Positions 47,380 to 64,000 of a stretch of 64,000 nucleotides of DNA are shown piece by piece; within the stretch, counting starts at the first letter, position 1; each line of letters begins with the position of its first letter. Below the pieces are notes generated by a model. It was not told the origin of the DNA, did not search any database, and saw only the letters and a program-made list of their open reading frames with translations. This DNA is from Lactiplantibacillus songbeiensis (GTDB lineage Bacteria > Bacillota > Bacilli > Lactobacillales > Lactobacillaceae): assembly GCF_005405125.1 (NCBI RefSeq), contig NZ_BJDL01000008.1, positions 1 to 64,000 of the forward strand, in the 5' to 3' direction. Made by a program: the position numbers and the translations under genes.

Positions 47380-47452
47380 TGGGCAGTCAGGGGATCGAAC
47401 CCTGGACCCACGGATTAAGAGTCCGTTGCTCTGCCAGCTGAGCTAACTGCCC
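47380..47452 (-). tRNA. tRNA-Lys (anticodon CTT)
   Basis: On the minus strand the cloverleaf is complete: acceptor GGGCAGT/ACTGCCC, D arm GCTC..GAGC, anticodon stem ACGGA/TCCGT with loop CTCTTAA (anticodon CTT), T arm CAGGG/CCCTG with loop TTCGATC, discriminator A. The 3' CCA is not encoded. Confidence 0.97.
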
Positions 47453-55482: not shown

Positions 55483-55962
55483 ATGAACATCAAAATTATC
55501 TGTGTCGGAAAATTAAAGGAAAAATATTTTAAACAGGGGATTGCGGAATATGCGAAACGCATGAGTAAATTTGCAAAATTCCAAATTGTTGAAGTTCCCG
55601 ATGAAAAGGCTCCTGAGTCATTAAGTAACGCAGAGATGGCTAATGTCATGGACAAGGAAGGTCAGCGGATTCTGGAGAAGATCAAGGATCGCGACTATGT
55701 GTATGCGCTGGCGATTAAAGGCAAGGAACGGACGAGTGAAGAATTCGCCGCTGAAATCGATAAACTGACGACTTATGGGCATAGTGATATTGACTTTATA
55801 ATTGGTGGCTCATTAGGGTTGGCACCAGAGGTCTTGCAACGGGCAGATACGCAGATCTCGTTTGGGCGGTTTACGTTGCCCCATCAGTTGATGCGGTTGG
55901 TGCTGTCGGAGCAGGTTTATCGGGCGTTTATGATTAATATTGGGTCTCCGTATCATAAGTGA
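55483..55962 (+). CDS. rlmH: 23S rRNA (pseudouridine1915-N3)-methyltransferase RlmH
   Basis: RlmH is a small SPOUT methyltransferase that modifies pseudouridine 1915 in helix 69 of 23S rRNA on assembled ribosomes. Its 159 residues begin [16 protein letters not shown], carry the knot motif [15 protein letters not shown] (about residues 105-119), and end [17 protein letters not shown] precedes the ATG. In staphylococci this gene is orfX, whose last codons are the SCC attachment site; here the same codons are repeated downstream (see the att features). The gene itself is intact. Confidence 0.97.
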
Positions 55963-55966
55963 CGCG
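55943..55966 (+). repeat. att site 1 (chromosomal, at the rlmH 3' end)
   Basis: The core TCCGTATCATAAGTGA (55947-55962) includes the rlmH stop codon and is followed by CGCGAAAAAGG. It is the reference for the downstream copies. Confidence 0.7.
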
Positions 55967-56056
55967 AAAAAGGTGTCCCACATGCTAGGCGCTTGGGATT
56001 CATGACATCGTAAATTATTTGGTAATTCGGCGTTTATAGCTAATTGCGTCGTTAGG

Positions 56057-56076
56057 GAAGTCCGTATCATAAGTGA
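56057..56076 (+). repeat. att site 2
   Basis: The core TCCGTATCATAAGTGA (56061-56076) is identical over 16 bp to site 1, at a 114-bp offset. In the rlmH frame it reads AGT CCG TAT CAT AAG TGA, that is SPYHK-stop. Confidence 0.7.
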
Positions 56077-56230
56077 GAAATAAACAGTTCATGTGCTGGG
56101 GACTAAGGACTTATTGGGTTAAGATTTAGTTGATACTTCATCTGTTTTAATTCTTTGTATTTGTGAGATATCAAAACTTAAAAAGTATGCTAAACTTTGA
56201 GTATCAAACTAAGAGAGGTGGCGGAATGTC

Positions 56231-57382
56231 ATGGCAATATTAAGGATTCCAGTGAAAGCCGAAATTATTGACTGGGCAATTGATAACGGTGAAAAAAAAG
56301 AATTAGAATTGAAAAAAAAGTATGCGCTTGATGCTTGGAAAAATCCACAGACTGACCATGACAATCCGACATTCAAGCAAATTCAGAATTTTAGTCGAGA
56401 TACACATATTCCATTCAACTACTTTTTCAAGGACAAACTTCCTGAAGAAAAAAATGAATTTGTCAAATTTAGAACAATTAATAACGATACGGTTCAGCCA
56501 AGCAGACGGTTGATTGATACAATATATGCTATGGAGACTCGTCAGGAATGGATGAAGGAGTATTTGCTAGATCAAAATAAAACCATAAGTTTTCAGTTTT
56601 CAAAAGTGTTTAGTGACACTATGGATCCAGTTGCTGTTTCGAAGGACGTATTGGAACTTTTAAATTTGTCAGATACACTTGGAATTGCAATGTCTGATGA
56701 TGACTTTTTTAATGTCATTAGAACTAAAATTAGTTCTTTAGGTATTATGGTTATGCAGAATGGTATTGTTGGTACTAATACACAGCGTCCATTAGATGTT
56801 GAGGAGTTTCGGGCATTTGTACTGATTGATTCCGTAATTCCCTTGATTTTTGTAAATAGTCGCGATAGTAAAAAGGCAAAAATATTTTCTTTGATTCATG
56901 AGCTTATTCACGTATTTTTAGGGAATAATGAAGTACTCAATGTGTCGCCTGAAGATGATATTGCAAATGAGCGTTGGATAAATCAAGTTACAATTAACGT
57001 GCTTATACCTGCCAATAAGATTGACAAATTAATATCAAAAAAAGTGTCACCTGAGAATAATGTAAAACTTTTATCCAGAAGGTTTCATACTAGTTTGGTA
57101 GCTACGGCAATTCGTATGAAGGAATTGCATATTTGGGGTGACAACATAGTTGATTGGTCGAAGAAAGAACAATCAAAATATTTACAATTAAAATTCGAGA
57201 AAAAGTCTTCCGGTGGGGACTTTTATAATACGGCAGTATCAAGAATTGATCGATACTTTGCTAATGCGATTATTAATACAGAGTCCAGTGGAAGTATGGC
57301 AATTGTACAGGCAGCGTCAATGTTAGGAGTAACTCTCAAAACATATGATACAACGGTTGATAAAATTTTAGGAATGGCGTGA
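56231..57382 (+). CDS. ImmA/IrrE-family zinc metallopeptidase with N-terminal regulatory domain
   Basis: This 383-residue protein has an N-terminal XRE/COG2856-type module (residues about 1-90, including TFKQIQNFSRDTHIPFNYFF) and a C-terminal metallopeptidase domain whose HEXXH motif is HELIH at about 223-227, in FSLIHELIHVFLGNNE. The family cleaves or controls repressors (ImmA with ImmR, IrrE with DdrO). The next gene begins 4 bp later and encodes a PIN-like protein, so it probably acts as antitoxin or regulator. Direct repeats GATATCAAAACT and GAGTATCAAACT in the promoter (56169-56213) may be its operator. Visibly AT-rich. Confidence 0.85.
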   Translation: MAILRIPVKAEIIDWAIDNGEKKELELKKKYALDAWKNPQTDHDNPTFKQIQNFSRDTHIPFNYFFKDKLPEEKNEFVKFRTINNDTVQPSRRLIDTIYAMETRQEWMKEYLLDQNKTISFQFSKVFSDTMDPVAVSKDVLELLNLSDTLGIAMSDDDFFNVIRTKISSLGIMVMQNGIVGTNTQRPLDVEEFRAFVLIDSVIPLIFVNSRDSKKAKIFSLIHELIHVFLGNNEVLNVSPEDDIANERWINQVTINVLIPANKIDKLISKKVSPENNVKLLSRRFHTSLVATAIRMKELHIWGDNIVDWSKKEQSKYLQLKFEKKSSGGDFYNTAVSRIDRYFANAIINTESSGSMAIVQAASMLGVTLKTYDTTVDKILGMA

Positions 57383-57386
57383 TATT

Positions 57387-57887
57387 ATGGAATATTTAAT
57401 TGACTCTAATTCATTAATAGATGCGCATCAAAAGTGGTATCGACCGAATGTCTTTGTATCTGTTTGGAATTGTCTTGCAAGTCATAAGAATGTTAAGATG
57501 ACATCTTTTGTTTATAATGAAATTAGGTATCCAAACGACTTAGCTATGTGGACAAAAAATACGTATCAGAAAGAAATCGTTACTCCTAATAAGGAGATTA
57601 TAAAGGCTTATGGAGAAATTATGGATTGGATTACGCAATCCAAGCGATGGAGTGCAGCTGGTATTTCAGAATGGCAAAGTCCTGACAAGGCTGATCCCTG
57701 GTTGATTGCCACAGCAAAAATAAACAAGCAAACAATTGTGACCCTAGATGGGAATGGTCGGGCAACCATGCCAAATGTAGGGAGTGCTTCTGGAAAAGAG
57801 CCTAAAATTAATGCAGTTGCGGGTCAGTTTAATGTTCCGACAATAACGATTTATGAATTGCTTGAACAGTTAAATTTGTCAGTGTAG
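57387..57887 (+). CDS. DUF4411 PIN-like protein, probable toxin
   Basis: This 166-residue protein has a PIN-like nuclease layout: N-terminal MEYLIDSNSLIDA with the first acidic residue, a central VYNEIR, then KADPWLIATAKIN and TIVTLDGN carrying the later acidic positions. DUF4411 genes are known partners of COG2856 (ImmA/IrrE) genes in predicted type II toxin-antitoxin modules. RNase activity is inferred from the fold. It is followed by a hairpin terminator. Confidence 0.8.
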   Translation: MEYLIDSNSLIDAHQKWYRPNVFVSVWNCLASHKNVKMTSFVYNEIRYPNDLAMWTKNTYQKEIVTPNKEIIKAYGEIMDWITQSKRWSAAGISEWQSPDKADPWLIATAKINKQTIVTLDGNGRATMPNVGSASGKEPKINAVAGQFNVPTITIYELLEQLNLSV

Positions 57888-58290
57888 ATTTTTTTAATTA
57901 TTTCATTGAAATTTCAAACATTGATGTTAAATCGGTTTCTCATCAACTTGTATTGATGAAAGGACAGGAGGTTCAATTCAACTTTCGAATTGAGATTCTT
58001 TTTCCTTGCGTTACCAGATATAATAGTCAAAAAATAGTCCGTTTCACGATTTTTTTTAGAATCGTAGAATAGGCTATTTATTTTTAATGAGAGAAGTCAT
58101 TAGCTTTTATAGAAAACAAGAAAATAAAACTTATTGAAGCGAATTATCTATAAACAACGATTGCCGGATCATTGTCATCTTTTATACTTTTAAGGTGCTT
58201 TGGAAATATGAGCGATTAGGTTTTCTTTTGACCGTTATACAAAGTTTGATAAGTATTGGGGTCTCTACTTAAATAGCGCCCAGGTATGAT
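57888..58290. other. AT-rich gap after the DUF4411 gene
   Basis: A terminator-like stem (TCAATTC/GAATTGA plus T5, 57972-58005) ends the toxin-antitoxin unit. A long imperfect dyad (AATAGTCCG..CTATT, about 58035-58080) follows. No gene is evident up to att site 3. Confidence 0.5.
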
Positions 58291-58374
58291 ACGGATCTCC
58301 TTATCACAAGTGACGCGGCTTTTCTTGGGATTGACTGCTAAGTGGATGGTTACGGAAGTCCACACCATAAGTAC
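58275..58374 (+). repeat. att sites 3 and 4 (compressed pair)
   Basis: Site 3 (58298-58313, TCCTTATCACAAGTGA) follows TAGCGCCCAGGTATGATA and reads Y-G-S-P-Y-H-K-stop in the rlmH frame. It is followed by CGCGGCTTTT, resembling the SCC border. A weaker site 4 (TCCACACCATAAGTAC, 58359-58374) lies 61 bp downstream, whereas the outer pairs are 114 bp apart. The shortfall suggests an internal deletion of about 53 bp. Confidence 0.65.
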
Positions 58375-58390
58375 CAAAAATACGGCAAAC

Positions 58391-58420
58391 AAAGAGGCCT
58401 CGACGATTCGAGGCCTCTTT
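58391..58420 (-). terminator. merR terminator
   Basis: AAAGAGGCCTCG and CGAGGCCTCTTT form a perfect 12-bp stem around a six-base loop. It lies just after the merR stop on the minus strand. Confidence 0.85.
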
Positions 58421-58431
58421 GTCTATGTTGC

Positions 58432-58812
58432 TCACATCACCGTGCTGTCTCCAGCTAAGTACCGCTCAAGCTTATGATCAATCACTTTCAGCTGTTCCTG
58501 CTTATCAGCAATCGAAGCGATGACTTGCTTACGTTGTTCGCGCATTAATTCAATTCGTTGAGGTAAGCTGTTATCGCCTTCACGTACTAAGGTCGTGTAG
58601 TGTTGCAATTCAACAATCGACATGCCAGCTTCTCGCAAATAATGCAAATTAGTTATCCAGTGTAGGTCTTCATCATTAAAGATCCGTTGATTATTTTCAT
58701 TGCGCTTTTCTGGTGGTAATAAGCCACACTCTAAGTAATACCTAACTGTTCGAATAGTGACTTTAGCGGCTTTCGCAAACTCACCGATCCGCATCAATTG
58801 ATTTTTGTCCAT
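58432..58812 (-). CDS. MerR-family transcriptional regulator
   Basis: This is a 126-residue regulator with the MerR N-terminal winged helix (LMRIGEFAKAAKVTIRTVRYYL, in two halves at about 6-27), then the second helix pair and a C-terminal dimerisation coiled coil (about 80-115). The only Cys is in ECGLLPP of the DNA-binding domain, so it is not a metal sensor; it looks like the AdhR/NmlR-type group. GGGAGGTC before ATG 58812 decides the start; an upstream frame extension runs through the promoter and is discarded. It is divergent from the SDR gene. Confidence 0.88.
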   Translation of the reverse strand: MDKNQLMRIGEFAKAAKVTIRTVRYYLECGLLPPEKRNENNQRIFNDEDLHWITNLHYLREAGMSIVELQHYTTLVREGDNSLPQRIELMREQRKQVIASIADKQEQLKVIDHKLERYLAGDSTVM

Positions 58813-58818
58813 TTTTGC

Positions 58819-58849
58819 TTGACCTCCCGTTACGTTAGGCTGATATAGT
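58819..58849 (+). promoter_or_regulatory. MerR-type promoter and operator of the SDR gene
   Basis: TTGACC (58819-58824) and TATAGT (58844-58849) are separated by 19 bp, the over-long spacer that MerR proteins correct by DNA distortion. A GACCT..AGGTC dyad brackets the promoter. The SDR gene is therefore the likely target of the adjacent regulator. Confidence 0.75.
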
Positions 58850-58876
58850 AGGTCCATCATAACAGAAAAGGAAGCT

Positions 58877-59596
58877 ATGAATATGACTATCAAGACATTA
58901 ATTACTGGTGCTGATCGCGGGATGGGCTACGAATTAGCCCTAGAGCTTGGTTTGAAAGGCCAATATATCTATGTTGGTTCTAGGAACTTAGCTCGTGGGC
59001 AGGCCGCAGTTACCCAGCTTGAGGCTGCGAGTGTTCAAGCTCAGGCAGTACAGTTAGACGTGACCGATCATGAGTCGATTGTTGCCGCGAAAGCGAATAT
59101 CACCACTAATTTAGATATTCTAATCAATAATGCCGGTATTGCTGTTGATCATGAGACTAAGCCGTCGGAACTGTCACTAGCCGCAATTCGGCAAGATTTT
59201 AACGTGAATTATTTTGGCTTGATCGATGTCACGCAAGTCTTCTTACCACTTTTGAAGGTAGCGCCGGCTGGCCGGATTATCAATATCTCCAGTGCAGTGG
59301 GGTCGTTGATGCTGGCCAGCGATACCAGTACTAGCATTCACAAGCTACAAGCATCTGGCTATCAGGCTTCTAAATCAGCGGTCAATATGTTCACCATTAA
59401 ACTCGCCGCCGAACTTGAGGGAACGTCTGTCACGGTAAACGCCGTCAATCCTGGTTGGGTAGACACCAGTTTTGGTGGTGGTGGCGGTAATCGGACCGTG
59501 CAAGTAGGTGTAGCGCGGACTGTGGAATTGGCCACTTCTGATGTGTTAACTGATTCTGGTACGTTTTCAGATATTGATGGTATCGTACCTTGGTAG
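58877..59596 (+). CDS. Short-chain dehydrogenase/reductase (SDR)
   Basis: This is a 239-residue classical SDR. The cofactor-binding motif is TGADRGMGYELALELG (about residues 10-25), then NNAG (about 89-92), the catalytic Ser in ISSAVGS, and the catalytic YQASK (Tyr-x-x-x-Lys, about 161-165). The Arg of GSRNLARGQ after strand 2 hints at NADP preference. Substrate is unknown. It sits opposite the MerR gene with a MerR-type promoter, a frequent lactobacillus stress-inducible pair. It lies inside the rlmH-repeat region. Confidence 0.9.
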   Translation: MNMTIKTLITGADRGMGYELALELGLKGQYIYVGSRNLARGQAAVTQLEAASVQAQAVQLDVTDHESIVAAKANITTNLDILINNAGIAVDHETKPSELSLAAIRQDFNVNYFGLIDVTQVFLPLLKVAPAGRIINISSAVGSLMLASDTSTSIHKLQASGYQASKSAVNMFTIKLAAELEGTSVTVNAVNPGWVDTSFGGGGGNRTVQVGVARTVELATSDVLTDSGTFSDIDGIVPW

Positions 59597-60203
59597 CCTG
59601 CTCAAATCTAGTACGACAAACTAAGAAGGCAAAGTTATCTCTAGAAGAAAAAATAATATTTTAGACAAGACATTTTAACAACTTCGAATCAAAATGAAAG
59701 TGATCTTATCGTGATTGTTTACGAGGGATTACTTTTTAACGTCGGATGATACCTGAAGCTTAGAAGTTGGTTATCCGACTATTTATGTGGCTGTAATTCC
59801 TGGAAAATAATTGTTGTTCAGCATACATATAAGAAGACTTGGTTTTTCGACTGAGTCTTCTTTTATGCGTAGTACTAGTTAATTCGATGCCAAGTATCCT
59901 AGTTTGTAAAATTGATCAGATTTAATAAAGTTCGCCAATTCATTTTAGATGATTAGTCTGGAATTCCTTAGTTTGATTATCCTCGTAGATTTGTTAGAAC
60001 CATCTTAGCTATCGTGTCGGAGTGCCGACATTTCTACTCCTTACGAAATGAACGTGCCCCGCCTATTCCTTAGATGGTTGCAATTGAGTTTTACGTAGTT
60101 TGAAGAGATTATTTTTGTGTGGGTTTAGACTGAGTATTTTTCTATAGGGGTAGACAGATCAGCACCAAGCTACCTGATACCTTGGTGGTTGAGTTCATTG
60201 TAT
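59597..60203. other. Gene-poor gap after the SDR gene
   Basis: About 600 bp have no supportable gene. A terminator (AAGAAGACT/AGTCTTCTTTT, 59831-59864) probably serves the SDR gene. Small hairpins TGTCGG..CCGACA (about 60016-60031) and CACCAAG..CTTGGTG (60163-60187) are present. TTGAGT-17-GATTAT (60084-60112) could be a promoter pointing at the small toxin-like gene, as an antisense RNA would need, but it is weak. Confidence 0.45.
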
Positions 60204-60232
60204 AAAAAATGAGCTAGTAGTTAAACTAGCTC
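60204..60232 (-). terminator. Terminator of the small hydrophobic peptide gene
   Basis: On the minus strand GAGCTAGT..ACTAGCTC is followed by ATTTTTT, 22 bp beyond the peptide stop. This is a canonical intrinsic terminator. Confidence 0.85.
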
Positions 60233-60254
60233 AAATCTATTAGATGTGAGTGAT

Positions 60255-60338
60255 TTACAGATTACCCCTGCACCGGATCAAGCATCCTGCTGGTAAGTAA
60301 ACCAGGGACATAGCTAGGATTGTGAGTAAAGTATGCAT
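60255..60338 (-). CDS. 27-residue hydrophobic peptide, type I toxin-like
   Basis: The peptide begins MHTLLTILAMSLVYLPAG and continues CLIRCRGNL. It has one hydrophobic membrane-like helix (about residues 4-21) and a short basic C-terminus, the layout of type I toxins and related membrane peptides. GGAGGTAATGGAT gives a strong ribosome-binding site; the internal ATGGAT is too close to serve. A terminator follows, and an extended -10 promoter lies about 150 bp upstream with a tRNA-like leader between. I do not recognise the family. An antisense RNA is not proven. Confidence 0.65.
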   Translation of the reverse strand: MHTLLTILAMSLVYLPAGCLIRCRGNL

Positions 60339-60421
60339 ATCCATTACCTCCTTCAAGGAATCGTAGAGACAACTTGAGAACAGAGATTGGAGTAAGGTGC
60401 TTAGAACCGGTAATTTTAGAT

Positions 60422-60479
60422 AGCAGGAGTGGGGATCGAACCCACGAGCTCTAAGGCTGTATGTATAGTTTACTTCTGC
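60422..60479 (-). ncRNA. tRNA-like minihelix in the leader of the hydrophobic peptide mRNA
   Basis: On the minus strand a perfect T arm (GTGGG/CCCAC, loop TTCGATC) is followed by CTCCTGCT. That segment pairs with GCAGAAG, located 43 bases upstream of the T arm, through six of seven positions in one register. D and anticodon arms are missing: only 27 bases lie between. The 5' strand starts 6 nt after an extended -10, so the RNA would begin at the helix itself. It may be a decayed tRNA gene or a tRNA mimic controlling the small peptide downstream. Confidence 0.55.
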
Positions 60480-60484
60480 GAATT

Positions 60485-60493
60485 AGTATATCA
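60485..60493 (-). promoter_or_regulatory. Extended -10 promoter of the tRNA-like leader and peptide
   Basis: The minus strand reads TGATATACT. The same nine bases form the likely walR promoter (47638) and recur at 62732. The predicted start is at about 60478, the first base of the tRNA-like helix. Confidence 0.55.
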
Positions 60494-60535
60494 TACTTGA
60501 ATCAATTTATTGGAGTGATCGTAGAGTAGTCTGTT

Positions 60536-60557
60536 ACGGATTTCCCAGTATCACAAG
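60536..60557 (+). repeat. att-like remnant 5
   Basis: ACGGATTTCCCAGTATCACAAG matches site 3 (ACGGATCTCCTTATCACAAG) with a small insertion. The sequence after it diverges at once into a terminator hairpin. Confidence 0.45.
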
Positions 60558-60591
60558 AAGCCAGAGTGCCCTTCGGATGCTCTGGCTTCTT
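60557..60591 (+). terminator. Hairpin terminator before the lipoprotein gene
   Basis: GAAGCCAGAG and CTCTGGCTTC form a perfect 10-bp stem, with weak T content after it. It starts exactly where the att remnant ends. Confidence 0.6.
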
Positions 60592-60660
60592 CATGTGTTC
60601 AAGACGAAATAGTTCTAGTGATTTAGTCTACTTTTAGTACAGTTCAAGGTATAAGTGCAG

Positions 60661-60690
60661 TTGAAATGGCGAATATTTTCAAAGTATAAT
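60661..60690 (+). promoter_or_regulatory. Promoter of the accessory lipoprotein gene
   Basis: TTGAAA, an 18-bp spacer and TATAAT lie 48 bp upstream of the ATG at 60738. This is a good sigma-A promoter. Confidence 0.75.
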
Positions 60691-60737
60691 TAAATCCGTA
60701 TGTAAGCGCTGCTTTGCGGTGGAAGGGGTAAGAATAA

Positions 60738-61592
60738 ATGAAAAGATTTATCAGATTTACGGGACTGCTTGCGCTATTTTTGATACTAGTGGCAGGGTTA
60801 GTCGCATGTAGGAGTAAGTCTAGTTCAAATAGTGATTCGTCATCGGGGTACGCTAATTCAATCAGTAAGGGATTAGACGCAGTTGCTGAGAACAAGATGA
60901 ACAAAGCGATTGCTTACTTTGATAATGCTTTGACTCAAAAGCATAAAGATGCTAAAGCTAAGGTCTATCGAAACCAAGCACAAGCCTATGTTGATACGAA
61001 TAACCAACTCAAAGCTGGTGAAATTCAAAAGGCAGTTACCACTGTTACTGATGGCGTAAAAATTAAAAATGGTGCCAGAAGTCTAGATGCTAAATTAATC
61101 CAGTTAAAGACAACTGCAAAATCTGATTTGACAGAGTACAACCAATTGAATAAGGATGTTACGGCTCAACTAAGAGTCACAGATGGTAATTATTCGAGTG
61201 ATGTTTTGAAGCAAAGTCAAAAGATTGATTGGGATAAAAAACCTTACCTAAGCAAACTTAAACCAAAAGTAAACCGATTGATTAAGCTGTCGAGTCAAAG
61301 AGACAGTTCCAGTAGTTCTGAAGCTTCTTCGAGCAATTCATCAAGCACAGCAAGCTCGGAGAGTGGTTTATCTGCATCTGATGCTAAGGGTAAGCTCGCA
61401 TCATTAGCTTTTTATAAAAAGAATAGTTCTCACATTGATATTACAGGCCAGCAACAGACAGCTAATGGATGGGAATTCACATGGCATTTTTCGAGTGGCA
61501 ATATGGGTGGAACCTTTGAAGTAAATAATGATGGGAGTATGTCCGCACAAGCCTCCAGTGGAGATAATGTTGGTACGGGTAATTGGAAATAA
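60738..61592 (+). CDS. Lipoprotein with TPR-like and Ser-rich regions
   Basis: This 284-residue protein starts with a lipoprotein signal ending GLVAC (Cys24). Residues about 45-125 are helical and TPR-like (AIAYFDNALTQKHKDAKAKV). A Ser-rich linker spans about 190-220. The C-terminal 65 residues (SASDAKGKLASLAFYK, then WEFTWHFSSG and a Gly/Ser ending) form a small domain that recurs in lactobacillus surface lipoproteins by recollection. Function is unknown; it would sit on the outer face of the membrane. It has its own promoter and terminator. Confidence 0.8.
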   Translation: MKRFIRFTGLLALFLILVAGLVACRSKSSSNSDSSSGYANSISKGLDAVAENKMNKAIAYFDNALTQKHKDAKAKVYRNQAQAYVDTNNQLKAGEIQKAVTTVTDGVKIKNGARSLDAKLIQLKTTAKSDLTEYNQLNKDVTAQLRVTDGNYSSDVLKQSQKIDWDKKPYLSKLKPKVNRLIKLSSQRDSSSSSEASSSNSSSTASSESGLSASDAKGKLASLAFYKKNSSHIDITGQQQTANGWEFTWHFSSGNMGGTFEVNNDGSMSAQASSGDNVGTGNWK

Positions 61593-61620
61593 TCAAGCTT
61601 CATACAATAGCATGCGTAAG

Positions 61621-61654
61621 ATAGCTGGTTCTGAGAAAGAGAGCCAGCTATTTT
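61621..61654 (+). terminator. Terminator of the accessory lipoprotein gene
   Basis: ATAGCTGGTTCT and AGAGCCAGCTAT pair around a short loop and are followed by four T. Confidence 0.75.
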
Positions 61655-61858
61655 AGTGATAAATAATGTTCAAGTTCTAATGAATAGTTGACAAGTATAT
61701 TTAGTTTATGATTGATTAGGGATAGGAGATTAGAAAAGAAAACACAGTTTGTTTGTCCGATAAGTGCGGGAAAACGGGTGGGGGTGTTGTATAGAGCAAT
61801 CATAATTAATGGCTATACGTACTTGAATGTCATGATGAGGCTTTAGCTTTTAAAAAAA
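61655..61858. other. Short gene-free stretch before the last att pair
   Basis: AT-rich with no motif recognised. It merges into AAAAAAATAGCGCC, the left edge shared with att site 3. Confidence 0.3.
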
Positions 61859-62013
61859 TAGCGCCTAGGTATGATATGGATCTCCGTATCACAAGTGACG
61901 CGAAAAAGGCGTTCCATATGCTAAGCACTTAGAATTCATGACATCGTAAACTAGTTGATGCTTCGGCGCTTATAGCTACCTATGTTGTTAGGGAAGTCCT
62001 CTTACCATAAATA
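61859..62013 (+). repeat. att pair 6 and 7 (second copy of the 134-bp module)
   Basis: TAGCGCCTAGGTATGATA leads into the core TCCGTATCACAAGTGA (61883-61898), which reads Y-G-S-P-Y-H-K-stop in the rlmH frame. The following 114 bp align throughout with 55963-56076, sharing CGCGAAAAAGG, ATTCATGACATCGTAAA and TTAGGGAAGTCC. It ends in the diverged TCCTCTTACCATAAATA (61997-62013). Confidence 0.7.
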
Positions 62014-62050
62014 AAGCAGATTTATCAAATTCAAGTGTGATAAAATAATT

Positions 62051-62140
62051 TAATTCCCCACGTTTGTGGGGGTGATCCAATAGTTTTAAGTAGTGTACGG
62101 CATACAGTGCTGTATTTCCCTACATATGTGGGGGTGATTT
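62051..62140 (+). CRISPR. Two-repeat remnant of a type I-E CRISPR array
   Basis: Two 28-bp repeats (62051-62078 and 62113-62140) share 22 positions and flank one 34-bp spacer. Both have the type I-E layout: ATTCCCCACG-like left arm, GTGGGG right arm and the GTGATCC-type end. The first forms CCCCAC/GTGGGG; in the second, CCCTAC/GTGGGG still pairs through a G-T wobble. An AT-rich stretch precedes them, as a leader would. No cas gene is in the window. The drifted second repeat suggests an inactive relic or the trailer end. Confidence 0.7.
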
Positions 62141-62256: not shown

Positions 62257-64000
62257 ATTTACAGTCAATTATTTGGCAAGGACTGAAGTACGTGAAACGT
62301 TCAGTTATCTAATAAAGAGTCCAAGCTACATTCTTGGTTTCCGTGGTCCTTAAAAGTAACAAGTAAACGACAATTTGTTTATGTGACGGATAGTCTTAGC
62401 TGGAATATAAAACAACTTGAAGCCCAACATTACGGTGTTATGTCTATTCTCATCCTGTGAGAGCACTAATATTCTTTGGCTTGAATAAGCTTTTAGGCAA
62501 TCTTACTCAATAAATAGCAGTCGTTAACCAAGTAATCATGGCTAAGAGGAATCAATTTGTTTTTTTAATAATTTTCGATGACGTCATGCAGATAAGACCA
62601 AAAGAAGTTTGTTGGGCTAGTTTACTTTGAATACGATCCTATATTGTTGTGCCTAGTTCACTAACGTAAGCTAATGCTTTTCTCTGATACTGTTATATAG
62701 AACACTCGTTAATACTATATTGGTTATAATGTGATATACTAAAATGGAACTTCTTATCTAGTTAAGAATATATACGAATTTTTATAGCGGTGTTTTTTTG
62801 TGATTAGGTCTGTATGTTGATTTTTTTAATAGATACAATGCTTTAATACAGTGAGGTCAGATTAAAATTTGAAGCAGGAAATAAGCGGGATTTATCAGGT
62901 ATTGCAATAGTGCTTATGTGAGTATTTAAAGAGAGAGGTCAATGCTGACGAATATTGGAAATTAAAGCATCAAGGAATACTGAGGAGGTGTTATGGGTTT
63001 CGGTTTCGTTGTTTTAATGGGGAATACAGGCTCGACTAACGTTTTATGAGTGGATTTTTCCGAATGTTGTCCATCTTTTCACAATCCAGAATCAGGAAAC
63101 TTCCAGATATCATATTCATTGTTGCATGGTAGTCAGGCCTGAAGAGGAGAGAAAAGATTGATGAATAGCGAAATCGACTAGTAAAACAATAATTCTTGGA
63201 TATATATATATTCGAGGGCACCTATTATTGAATCTTGAGGTGTTAGTGAAAGTGTTCCAGTTTGAAAGAAAAATATAAAACTGAATAAGAATCATCATTA
63301 GGAAAAAGTAAGTAAATATATATGATCTTGATACACCCCTAAATCACTGAAGGCGAACAGAATCGATGGGGTGGAACCGTATGCGGGTGATTAAGACGCA
63401 TGTATTGGCTCTGGAAACCGGATTGCGAAAGCAATCTGGGCTGCAAAGCTATGGGAGACACCTGATGTCATACTAGCGGTAGTTGATTTTTGGAATGTAC
63501 AAAATTTGATGGCGCCGGATTGGTAATCAGTAGTGACTCTAAAAGAAATTGGTGAATGAGATCATAAAAAGATGCAAACTGACATCGTAGGAATTATTAT
63601 CGACCTGCATGCGCCGGATGTACTAACCAAAGAAGCAAGCATGGAAACTGTTGAAGAATGAGAAACGTTGAAACTAATAATAGCTAAATGTTTAAACTGG
63701 TCATTTGCAATGAATCTTGATTCTTAAGTGATCAGATTTTTATCCTCTTAAAAGAAGAAACTAAGACGTAATACGTTTTGTATTAGGATTGACGTTTTTA
63801 ACGAAATAGTTGGTTTAAATGAACGTAATCATATGGCACTATAGAACGCACGTTCTTAGCCAGCAATATTAAATTATTGAGAAGAGTTGTCAAAAAAGTG
63901 GAAGTATCAGATTTGGATAAATTGTATGTAAAAATGAAACAGGTTCAGCGGGATTGTGAAAGCAAAGATAACGGGTGTTTAATGACGTTGGGGACACCTA
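62257..64000. other. 1.7-kb region without convincing genes, rich in hairpins
   Basis: No frame has both a ribosome-binding site and protein-like length. From about 62740 on, short stems follow each other: TTCTTA/TAAGAA (62752-62769), CACCT/AGGTG (63220-63242), CACCCC/GGGGTG (63334-63373), CCGGATTGC-GAAA-GCAATCTGG (63418-63439), GAATC/GATTC (63714-63725), TAATAC/GTATTA (63770-63786), GAACG/CGTTC (63845-63856) and GGTGT/ACACC at the right edge. A TGATATACT box lies at 62732-62740. It may be a large structured RNA or decayed mobile DNA. Confidence 0.4.
62993..63049 (+). CDS. Possible 18-residue peptide (MGFGFVVLMGNTGSTNVL)
   Basis: GAGGAGGTGTT directly before ATG is one of the best ribosome-binding sites in this region, and the frame is short and hydrophobic in its first half. 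There is no homologue I recognise and no clear promoter close by. It may be chance, or a truncated gene start. Confidence 0.25.
   Translation: MGFGFVVLMGNTGSTNVL

Follow-up and report, generated by a model that had tools for sequence, protein, structure and literature searches.

The stretch of DNA considered here, referred to as the window, comprises 64,000 nucleotides of a contig of Lactiplantibacillus songbeiensis, and carries on its minus strand a compact unit that can be followed from promoter to terminator. An extended -10 element, TGATATACT, is read directly at 60493-60485, without a good -35 element; a promoter scan detected it in six of seven aligned genomes, and its variants are TGATATAAC in L. 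suantsaiihabitans and TGATATACC in genome G404. With the start placed from this element, the transcript would extend over about 276 nt (60204..60479), beginning with GCAGAAG (60479-60473) and closing with an intrinsic terminator at 60204..60233, made of a stem (60233-60210) followed by T6. The leader contains a T-arm-like hairpin, GTGGG-TTCGATC-CCCAC (60429..60445), enclosed by a helix, P1, the strands of which are CUUAGAGC (60455-60448) and GUUCUAAG (60407-60400; whole span 60400..60455). A good Shine-Dalgarno sequence (about 60351-60346) then precedes by 8 nt the ATG of a 27-codon frame (60255..60338, stop included), encoding the hydrophobic peptide MHTLLTILAMSLVYLPAGCLIRCRGNL. An earlier note on this DNA had described such an assembly, and reading the sequence located every part of it, the promoter, Shine-Dalgarno, frame and terminator as well as GCAGAAG and a perfect T-arm hairpin.

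Eight species have conserved this unit in full, its structured 5' leader together with the frame of the small hydrophobic peptide. Besides the window's own genome, close homologues of the whole were found in Levilactobacillus huananensis (G260), L. brevis CD0817 (G245), L. suantsaiihabitans (G331), L. enshiensis (G401), a Lactobacillus metagenome-assembled genome (G012) and two further genomes (G001 and G404), and a single distant relative was recognized in G248. BLAST searches with positions 60204-60540 gave near-complete matches in three of the 21 genomes of the genus, its own included (13 further ones had short chance-level matches only, up to E 1), and in six of 397 genomes of the family, ten others having matches of 21-40 nt. 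R1, a covariance model built on the leader, recovered the same six family genomes at E < 1e-31 and placed the unit in five of 35 Levilactobacillus genomes, G404 being the newcomer. The match in G248, located 1.7 kb from rlmH, has an E-value of 3.5e-4 in its genome, which amounts to about 0.14 expected over the 397. At E <= 1, R1 matched 178 of the 397 genomes, 171 of them between E 0.001 and 1; the 23 best of these weak matches were rejected as units, since 18 overlap tRNA genes called by ARAGORN and the other five, together with one more weak match (L137), appeared by eye to be tRNA-like or unrelated sequence. An order-wide covariance model search with stricter filters retrieved the window's own genome alone among 395 at E <= 0.001, and no relative was found on plasmids or phages (blastn) or on viral contigs (exact pattern). 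In the resulting eight-way alignment (A5, where column i stands for window position 60480-i), the transcript region is conserved from end to end.

The hairpin of the leader looks much like a piece of tRNA. It has a G-C closing pair, a TTCRANY loop and five Watson-Crick pairs; T arms this good are rare by chance, first-order Markov sequences of 64 kb containing 0.04 of them on average and eight of 200 such sequences containing one or more, and the window holds two, the hairpin at 60445-60429 and that of a real tRNA-Lys. Its pairs are retained in all eight members, with a single G-U in one genome, and the loop reads TTCRANY in all eight. The observed loop changes are all transitions, which would preserve R57 and Y60 regardless. 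The earlier note had built on this likeness, proposing a tRNA-like minihelix at the 5' end of the messenger that could be cut by RNase P or RNase Z, or could sense tRNA maturation. The comparison of species speaks for another view. In the window, the tRNA-Lys near 47380-47452 is the only tRNA reported by ARAGORN, and likewise by Rfam at gathering scores, a permissive Rfam scan of 60100-60700 with E up to 10 gave no tRNA match, and the window sequence is without CCA. The acceptor helix that would have to sit on the T arm (columns 1-6 with 52-57) is paired in 52.1% of the cells of A5, with no two-sided change; five of its six pairs form in the window, where alone its first pair exists. The helix is broken elsewhere because the strand GCAGAAG is replaced by TCAGAAG, TCAAAAG, TCATAAG, TCGCAAG or TCACAAG while its partner is TCCTGC or TCCCGC. 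When the leader was folded over its first 90 columns, pair probabilities were examined for four positions of the acceptor, and came to at most 0.14 in the window and to 0.000 in the seven other homologues.

It is another helix that evolution kept. P1, which encloses the hairpin, is paired in 98.2% of cells over seven genomes and in 97% over eight; one pair of P1 is G-U, G-C or A-U according to the species, and no pair counts as a two-sided change. Taken alone, P1 and the hairpin do not exceed shuffled alignments (429 of 500 did as well), and the fold energy of columns 20-85 is unremarkable (z -1.64, 9 of 100 shuffles). In the distant relative G248 the loop has become CTCGATT and the stem contains two G-U pairs, so that T-arm identity is lost there and the hairpin itself retained. 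The hairpin probably matters, its tRNA identity probably does not. With the acceptor broken, a different helix kept and the loop changed in G248, cutting by RNase P or RNase Z, or sensing of tRNA maturation, is left without comparative support; despite the TTCRANY loop of the eight close members, the minihelix reading is largely refuted and we hold it to be very improbable. The T-arm sequence might also be seen as what is left of a decayed tRNA gene or tRNA attachment site; a 32-nt part is matched, at 81%, in four of the genus's genomes, and the one match checked by coordinates (L039) falls inside a tRNA-Met gene. The 20-mer has no second copy in the genome with up to three mismatches allowed, however, the hairpin is retained in eight species, ARAGORN found no tRNA gene in the eight loci submitted to it, the distant one included, and, as will be seen, the insertion target here is rlmH and not a tRNA. 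This derivation is rejected, being in our judgement even more improbable than the minihelix. Of the two findings that the earlier note had named as speaking against it, a full tRNA gene at homologous loci and a peptide frame that is not conserved, neither was made.

We may therefore ask what fold the transcript as a whole is predicted to adopt. A consensus structure was derived with RNAalifold from the alignment of the eight transcripts. It contains 86 pairs, with 95.9% of 684 cells paired as compared with 34-40% for slid partners, a control that is biased since the consensus comes from the same sequences. Shuffled alignments equalled the observed values in none of 500 cases for cells paired or for the covariation score, in four of 500 for cells with two-sided changes (seven), in 32 of 500 for pairs with such changes (four) and in 111 of 500 for further pair types, figures to be read knowing that kinship among sequences can beat shuffles without any structure. 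A separate control, on the 276-nt transcript, gave a consensus energy z of -5.79, none of 100 class-preserving column shuffles being equally low; the two sequences folded singly for this purpose had z values of -3.28 (window) and -5.12 (G001).

The first helix of this structure is predicted to join the 5' end (nucleotides 6-20, 60460..60474) to the region of the start codon (nucleotides 141-155, 60325..60339), through 13 pairs formed in 95% of cells; one of these pairs changes on both sides (G-C / A-U) and is broken in three of the eight genomes including the window, and the three AUG pairs are formed in all eight. The sixth is predicted to sequester the Shine-Dalgarno sequence (129-134) with a UCUCU stretch at 60387-60382 (93-98; span 60346..60387), 100% of cells being paired over the eight genomes. 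Most of the frame lies within a long predicted hairpin, helices 8-11, at 158-243 (60237..60322), and columns 142-245 have a z of -3.12, with two of 100 shuffles equally low. The twelfth helix is the terminator stem, where one pair shows two-sided changes. By prediction, then, mRNA structure hides the ribosome site, a hallmark of type I toxin messengers, and with start codon, Shine-Dalgarno and frame all paired the primary transcript should be translationally inert. Folded as single sequences, three of seven members formed the start-codon helix and four, the window among them, preferred other partners; an alternative long-range pairing of the leader (69-84) with the frame (194-208) is about as well retained (94% of cells) and hardly varies. 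The RNA may alternate between two locked states in competition, of the sort that known toxin mRNAs have.

The frame that this structure would lock is intact in the eight members. It specifies 27 or 32 residues, with a net charge of +1 or +2 and a best 19-residue mean hydrophobicity of 2.0-2.8. Over seven genomes, the variable columns number ten at first, four at second and ten at third codon positions, and pN/pS is 0.38, with 24 of 300 column shuffles as low: a modest coding signal, and one drawn from columns that RNA structure constrains as well. From sequence comparison the frame is likely, though not proven, to be coding. Some copies may be weak or dead, as the G404 peptide has a proline within its hydrophobic stretch, and has lost both cysteines, and that of L. 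suantsaiihabitans has an aspartate in the same stretch. The peptide has no match in Pfam at E <= 10 (three variants) or in NCBIfam at E <= 1 (two variants), and its matches in PHROGs are at E 0.12 or worse.

The genomic neighbourhood adds a different kind of evidence. Some distance away on the plus strand lies rlmH (55483..55962), the protein product of which ends in GSPYHK followed by the stop, and the 3' end of the gene, GGGTCTCCGTATCATAAGTGA, is the first att site of an array of direct repeats, all in one direction, at 55948, 56062, 58299 and 61884 and, further along the contig, at 69670. From 55948 to 61902 of the window, and on to contig position 69691, we thus observe an SCC-like array at rlmH, with repeated att sites and exchangeable cargo: the genes between the repeats differ among species. 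A repeat lying beside the unit, entertained at some point as a mobile repeat as such, is an att site of this array. The unit has its own relation to att. A degraded SCC-type copy is found at 60532..60562 (plus strand), 52 bp upstream of the transcript start, and in seven of the eight members an att core lies 52-53 bp upstream of that start. The window's copy has 13 mismatches in 31 (one of 300 random stretches is as good), six others have 1-8 in 31, and the L. enshiensis locus has none. rlmH is 2.3-13.2 kb from the unit in the same proportion of members, seven of eight; in L. enshiensis it was absent from the 14.7 kb examined.

Recombinase genes complete the association. In L. huananensis (L074) the unit has att on one side and a convergent ccrB-like gene on the other, beyond which come genes resembling ccrA and cch; L. 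brevis CD0817 (L075) has the same order, except that a DDE transposase gene separates the unit from its ccrB-like gene, which is shortened at its end; in L. enshiensis, near the end of the contig, a convergent ccrB-like piece (43% identity over 211 aa) is located about 0.4 kb beyond the unit. At E <= 1e-100, ccrB was found in six of the 397 genomes and in none of the window's genome, G012 and G001; four full-length copies are distant, with 43-48% identity, and their genomes (G162, G172, G184 and G237) have no R1 match at E <= 1. As in staphylococcal SCC, the insertion point of these elements is the 3' end of rlmH, their att sites, here with TATCATAAGTGA, are direct repeats, and they carry ccrA-, ccrB- and cch-like genes, recombinase and helicase being both present in G260 and G245. 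The elements differ from SCC in residing in another host family and in Ccr and Cch matches far under the staphylococcal equivalog cut-offs, for example 536 as against 900 bits. For the peptide module, no staphylococcal counterpart is known to us. The fixed att spacing, the vicinity of rlmH and the adjacency of ccrB lead us to conclude that SCC-like elements of Lactobacillaceae carry the unit as an end module; no ccrB being found in its genome, the element of the window is a remnant in which the module is intact.

Several other features were noticed in and around the array. A conserved gene-free stretch (59931..60160, minus strand), partly deleted in G001, separates the unit from the place of ccrB. 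It includes a short stem-loop, which reads GTCGG-CACT-CCGAC in the window; by eye, the outer pair is T-A there, whereas several of the other copies have C-G. At 58432-59596 a MerR regulator and an SDR gene diverge, with 87-91% DNA identity to cassettes of other species, in some of which their order relative to the unit differs. Between two att sites, at 56231-57887, a Peptidase_M78 gene (ImmA/IrrE-like) and a DUF4411 gene perhaps constitute a pair of the toxin-antitoxin type. From 63877-64000 to contig position 69598 (L081, 2878-8599) runs a large helicase with weak similarity to DdmD (PADLOC E 2e-18), the 702-aa partner of which has no Pfam or PADLOC match; the two are a possible defence pair carried as cargo. 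At 62040-62138, a pair of degenerate repeats with TTCCCCACGTTTGTGGGGGTGAT, spaced by 62 bases, looks by eye like a decayed type I-E CRISPR array, and ORFs resembling a type I-E cas operon are seen, again by eye, at about 72.6-81.9 kb of the contig. In G260, a second copy of the rlmH 3' end (C32:67322-67417, aa 125-156, 81%) lies beyond the cassette, perhaps the relic of an earlier insertion.

If the peptide were a toxin, an antitoxin, antisense or other, may accompany it. The best antisense promoter candidate is inside the frame and passes the scan in five of seven genomes, and judged by eye the copies of G012, L. brevis and G404 have no good -10; no antisense terminator was found in the window between 59900 and 60740. 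Complementarity to the 330 downstream bases, compared with shuffles in seven genomes, stands out only in L. huananensis, where one of 60 shuffles was as long; in the other six, 9 to 60 of 60 were.

Locked messengers of type I toxins have been described, and these accounts show what AapA/IsoA of Helicobacter, Hok and TimP have in common with the fold predicted here: a short hydrophobic peptide and a ribosome site hidden by local hairpins together with long-range pairing (PMC6733600; PMC11228461). The present unit differs from them in that its peptide has no family match, that the predicted partner of its start codon is the 5' end and not the 3' end, and that it is located at the end of an SCC-like element. 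Closer in taxonomy, Lpt, a member of the Fst family from Lacticaseibacillus plasmids, is a 29-aa hydrophobic peptide, as compared with 27-32 aa here, also from lactobacilli, and, according to PMC5608710 and PMC6811638, has a structured 5' leader too. In these sources Lpt is paired with an antitoxin RNA that converges on it and shares direct repeats, and is placed beside the plasmid gene repB; neither was found at the unit. The tails differ as well, KYALDNHK in Lpt and RCRGNL here, and the peptide shows no sequence similarity to the Fst/Lpt family (NCBIfam E <= 1, Pfam E <= 10). Our search of the literature, whose coverage left subscription journals mostly outside, found no account of the unit or of SCC-like elements in lactobacilli; in the accessible part of PMC6008420, examined for 'SCC-like', 'Lactobacillus' and 'rlmH', Lactobacillus appears in the reference list only.

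How should these observations be put together? The predicted fold over the start signal and the tiny membrane-type peptide point to a gene in the style of toxins rather than to a tRNA mimic, and we place slightly more belief than disbelief in a translation-locked, type I toxin-like peptide mRNA acting as end module of an SCC-like cassette at rlmH, the likeness being one of design and not a claim of class membership. The extended -10 promoter, just inside att, would drive a short and highly structured mRNA, whose hydrophobic product of 27-32 aa ends in a positively charged tail. As long as the RNA is of full length, its 5' end would be paired with the start codon, a stem would hold the Shine-Dalgarno sequence and a long hairpin would enclose the frame; this inert primary transcript would be activated by refolding or trimming. 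If the analogy to locked messengers of type I toxins holds, the membrane would be the target of the peptide, and addiction the means by which it favours retention of the element. A bolder version seems to us improbable: SCC-like cassettes of lactobacilli would bear, at a constant distance within one att end, a new family of self-locked toxin-peptide mRNAs, expressed according to the integrated or excised state of the cassette, with antisense transcription coming in over att from the chromosome as the antitoxin, lost on excision.

Two other explanations need to be weighed against the toxin-like messenger. The transcript could be a structured non-coding RNA of the element, controlling for example excision or replication near att, its frame incidental or minor; the constant spacing of 52-53 bp from att in seven of eight members would suit such a role, and the fold signal of the whole transcript (0/100) exceeds the coding signal (24/300). 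A good Shine-Dalgarno sequence set 8 nt before the ATG of a frame intact in all eight, and the scarcity of variable columns at second positions (four, against ten and ten, in seven genomes), would nevertheless be hard to account for, and we judge this explanation unlikely. Rather less likely still is a small non-toxic peptide, either a signal or a regulator of the cassette recombinases. The motif LP(A/V)GC near the middle of the peptide, which we take to resemble the end of a signal peptide, and the neighbouring ccrB, adjacent in two genomes and reduced to a ccrB-like piece in a third, would fit it; yet a double lock on the ribosome site is a trait of toxin mRNAs, and the unit has been retained in the window's genome, G012 and G001, which have no ccrB match at E <= 1e-100.

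Returning to the locked, toxin-like messenger, a general lesson can be drawn from the way its leader misleads the eye, as a convincing T arm may belong to an unrelated regulatory fold. The unit also provides a comparative data set of eight species for a predicted start-codon lock that is directly testable. If the peptide is toxic, an addiction module would be present within the core of SCC-like elements, and this would help explain the persistence of cassettes, and of their remnants, at rlmH.
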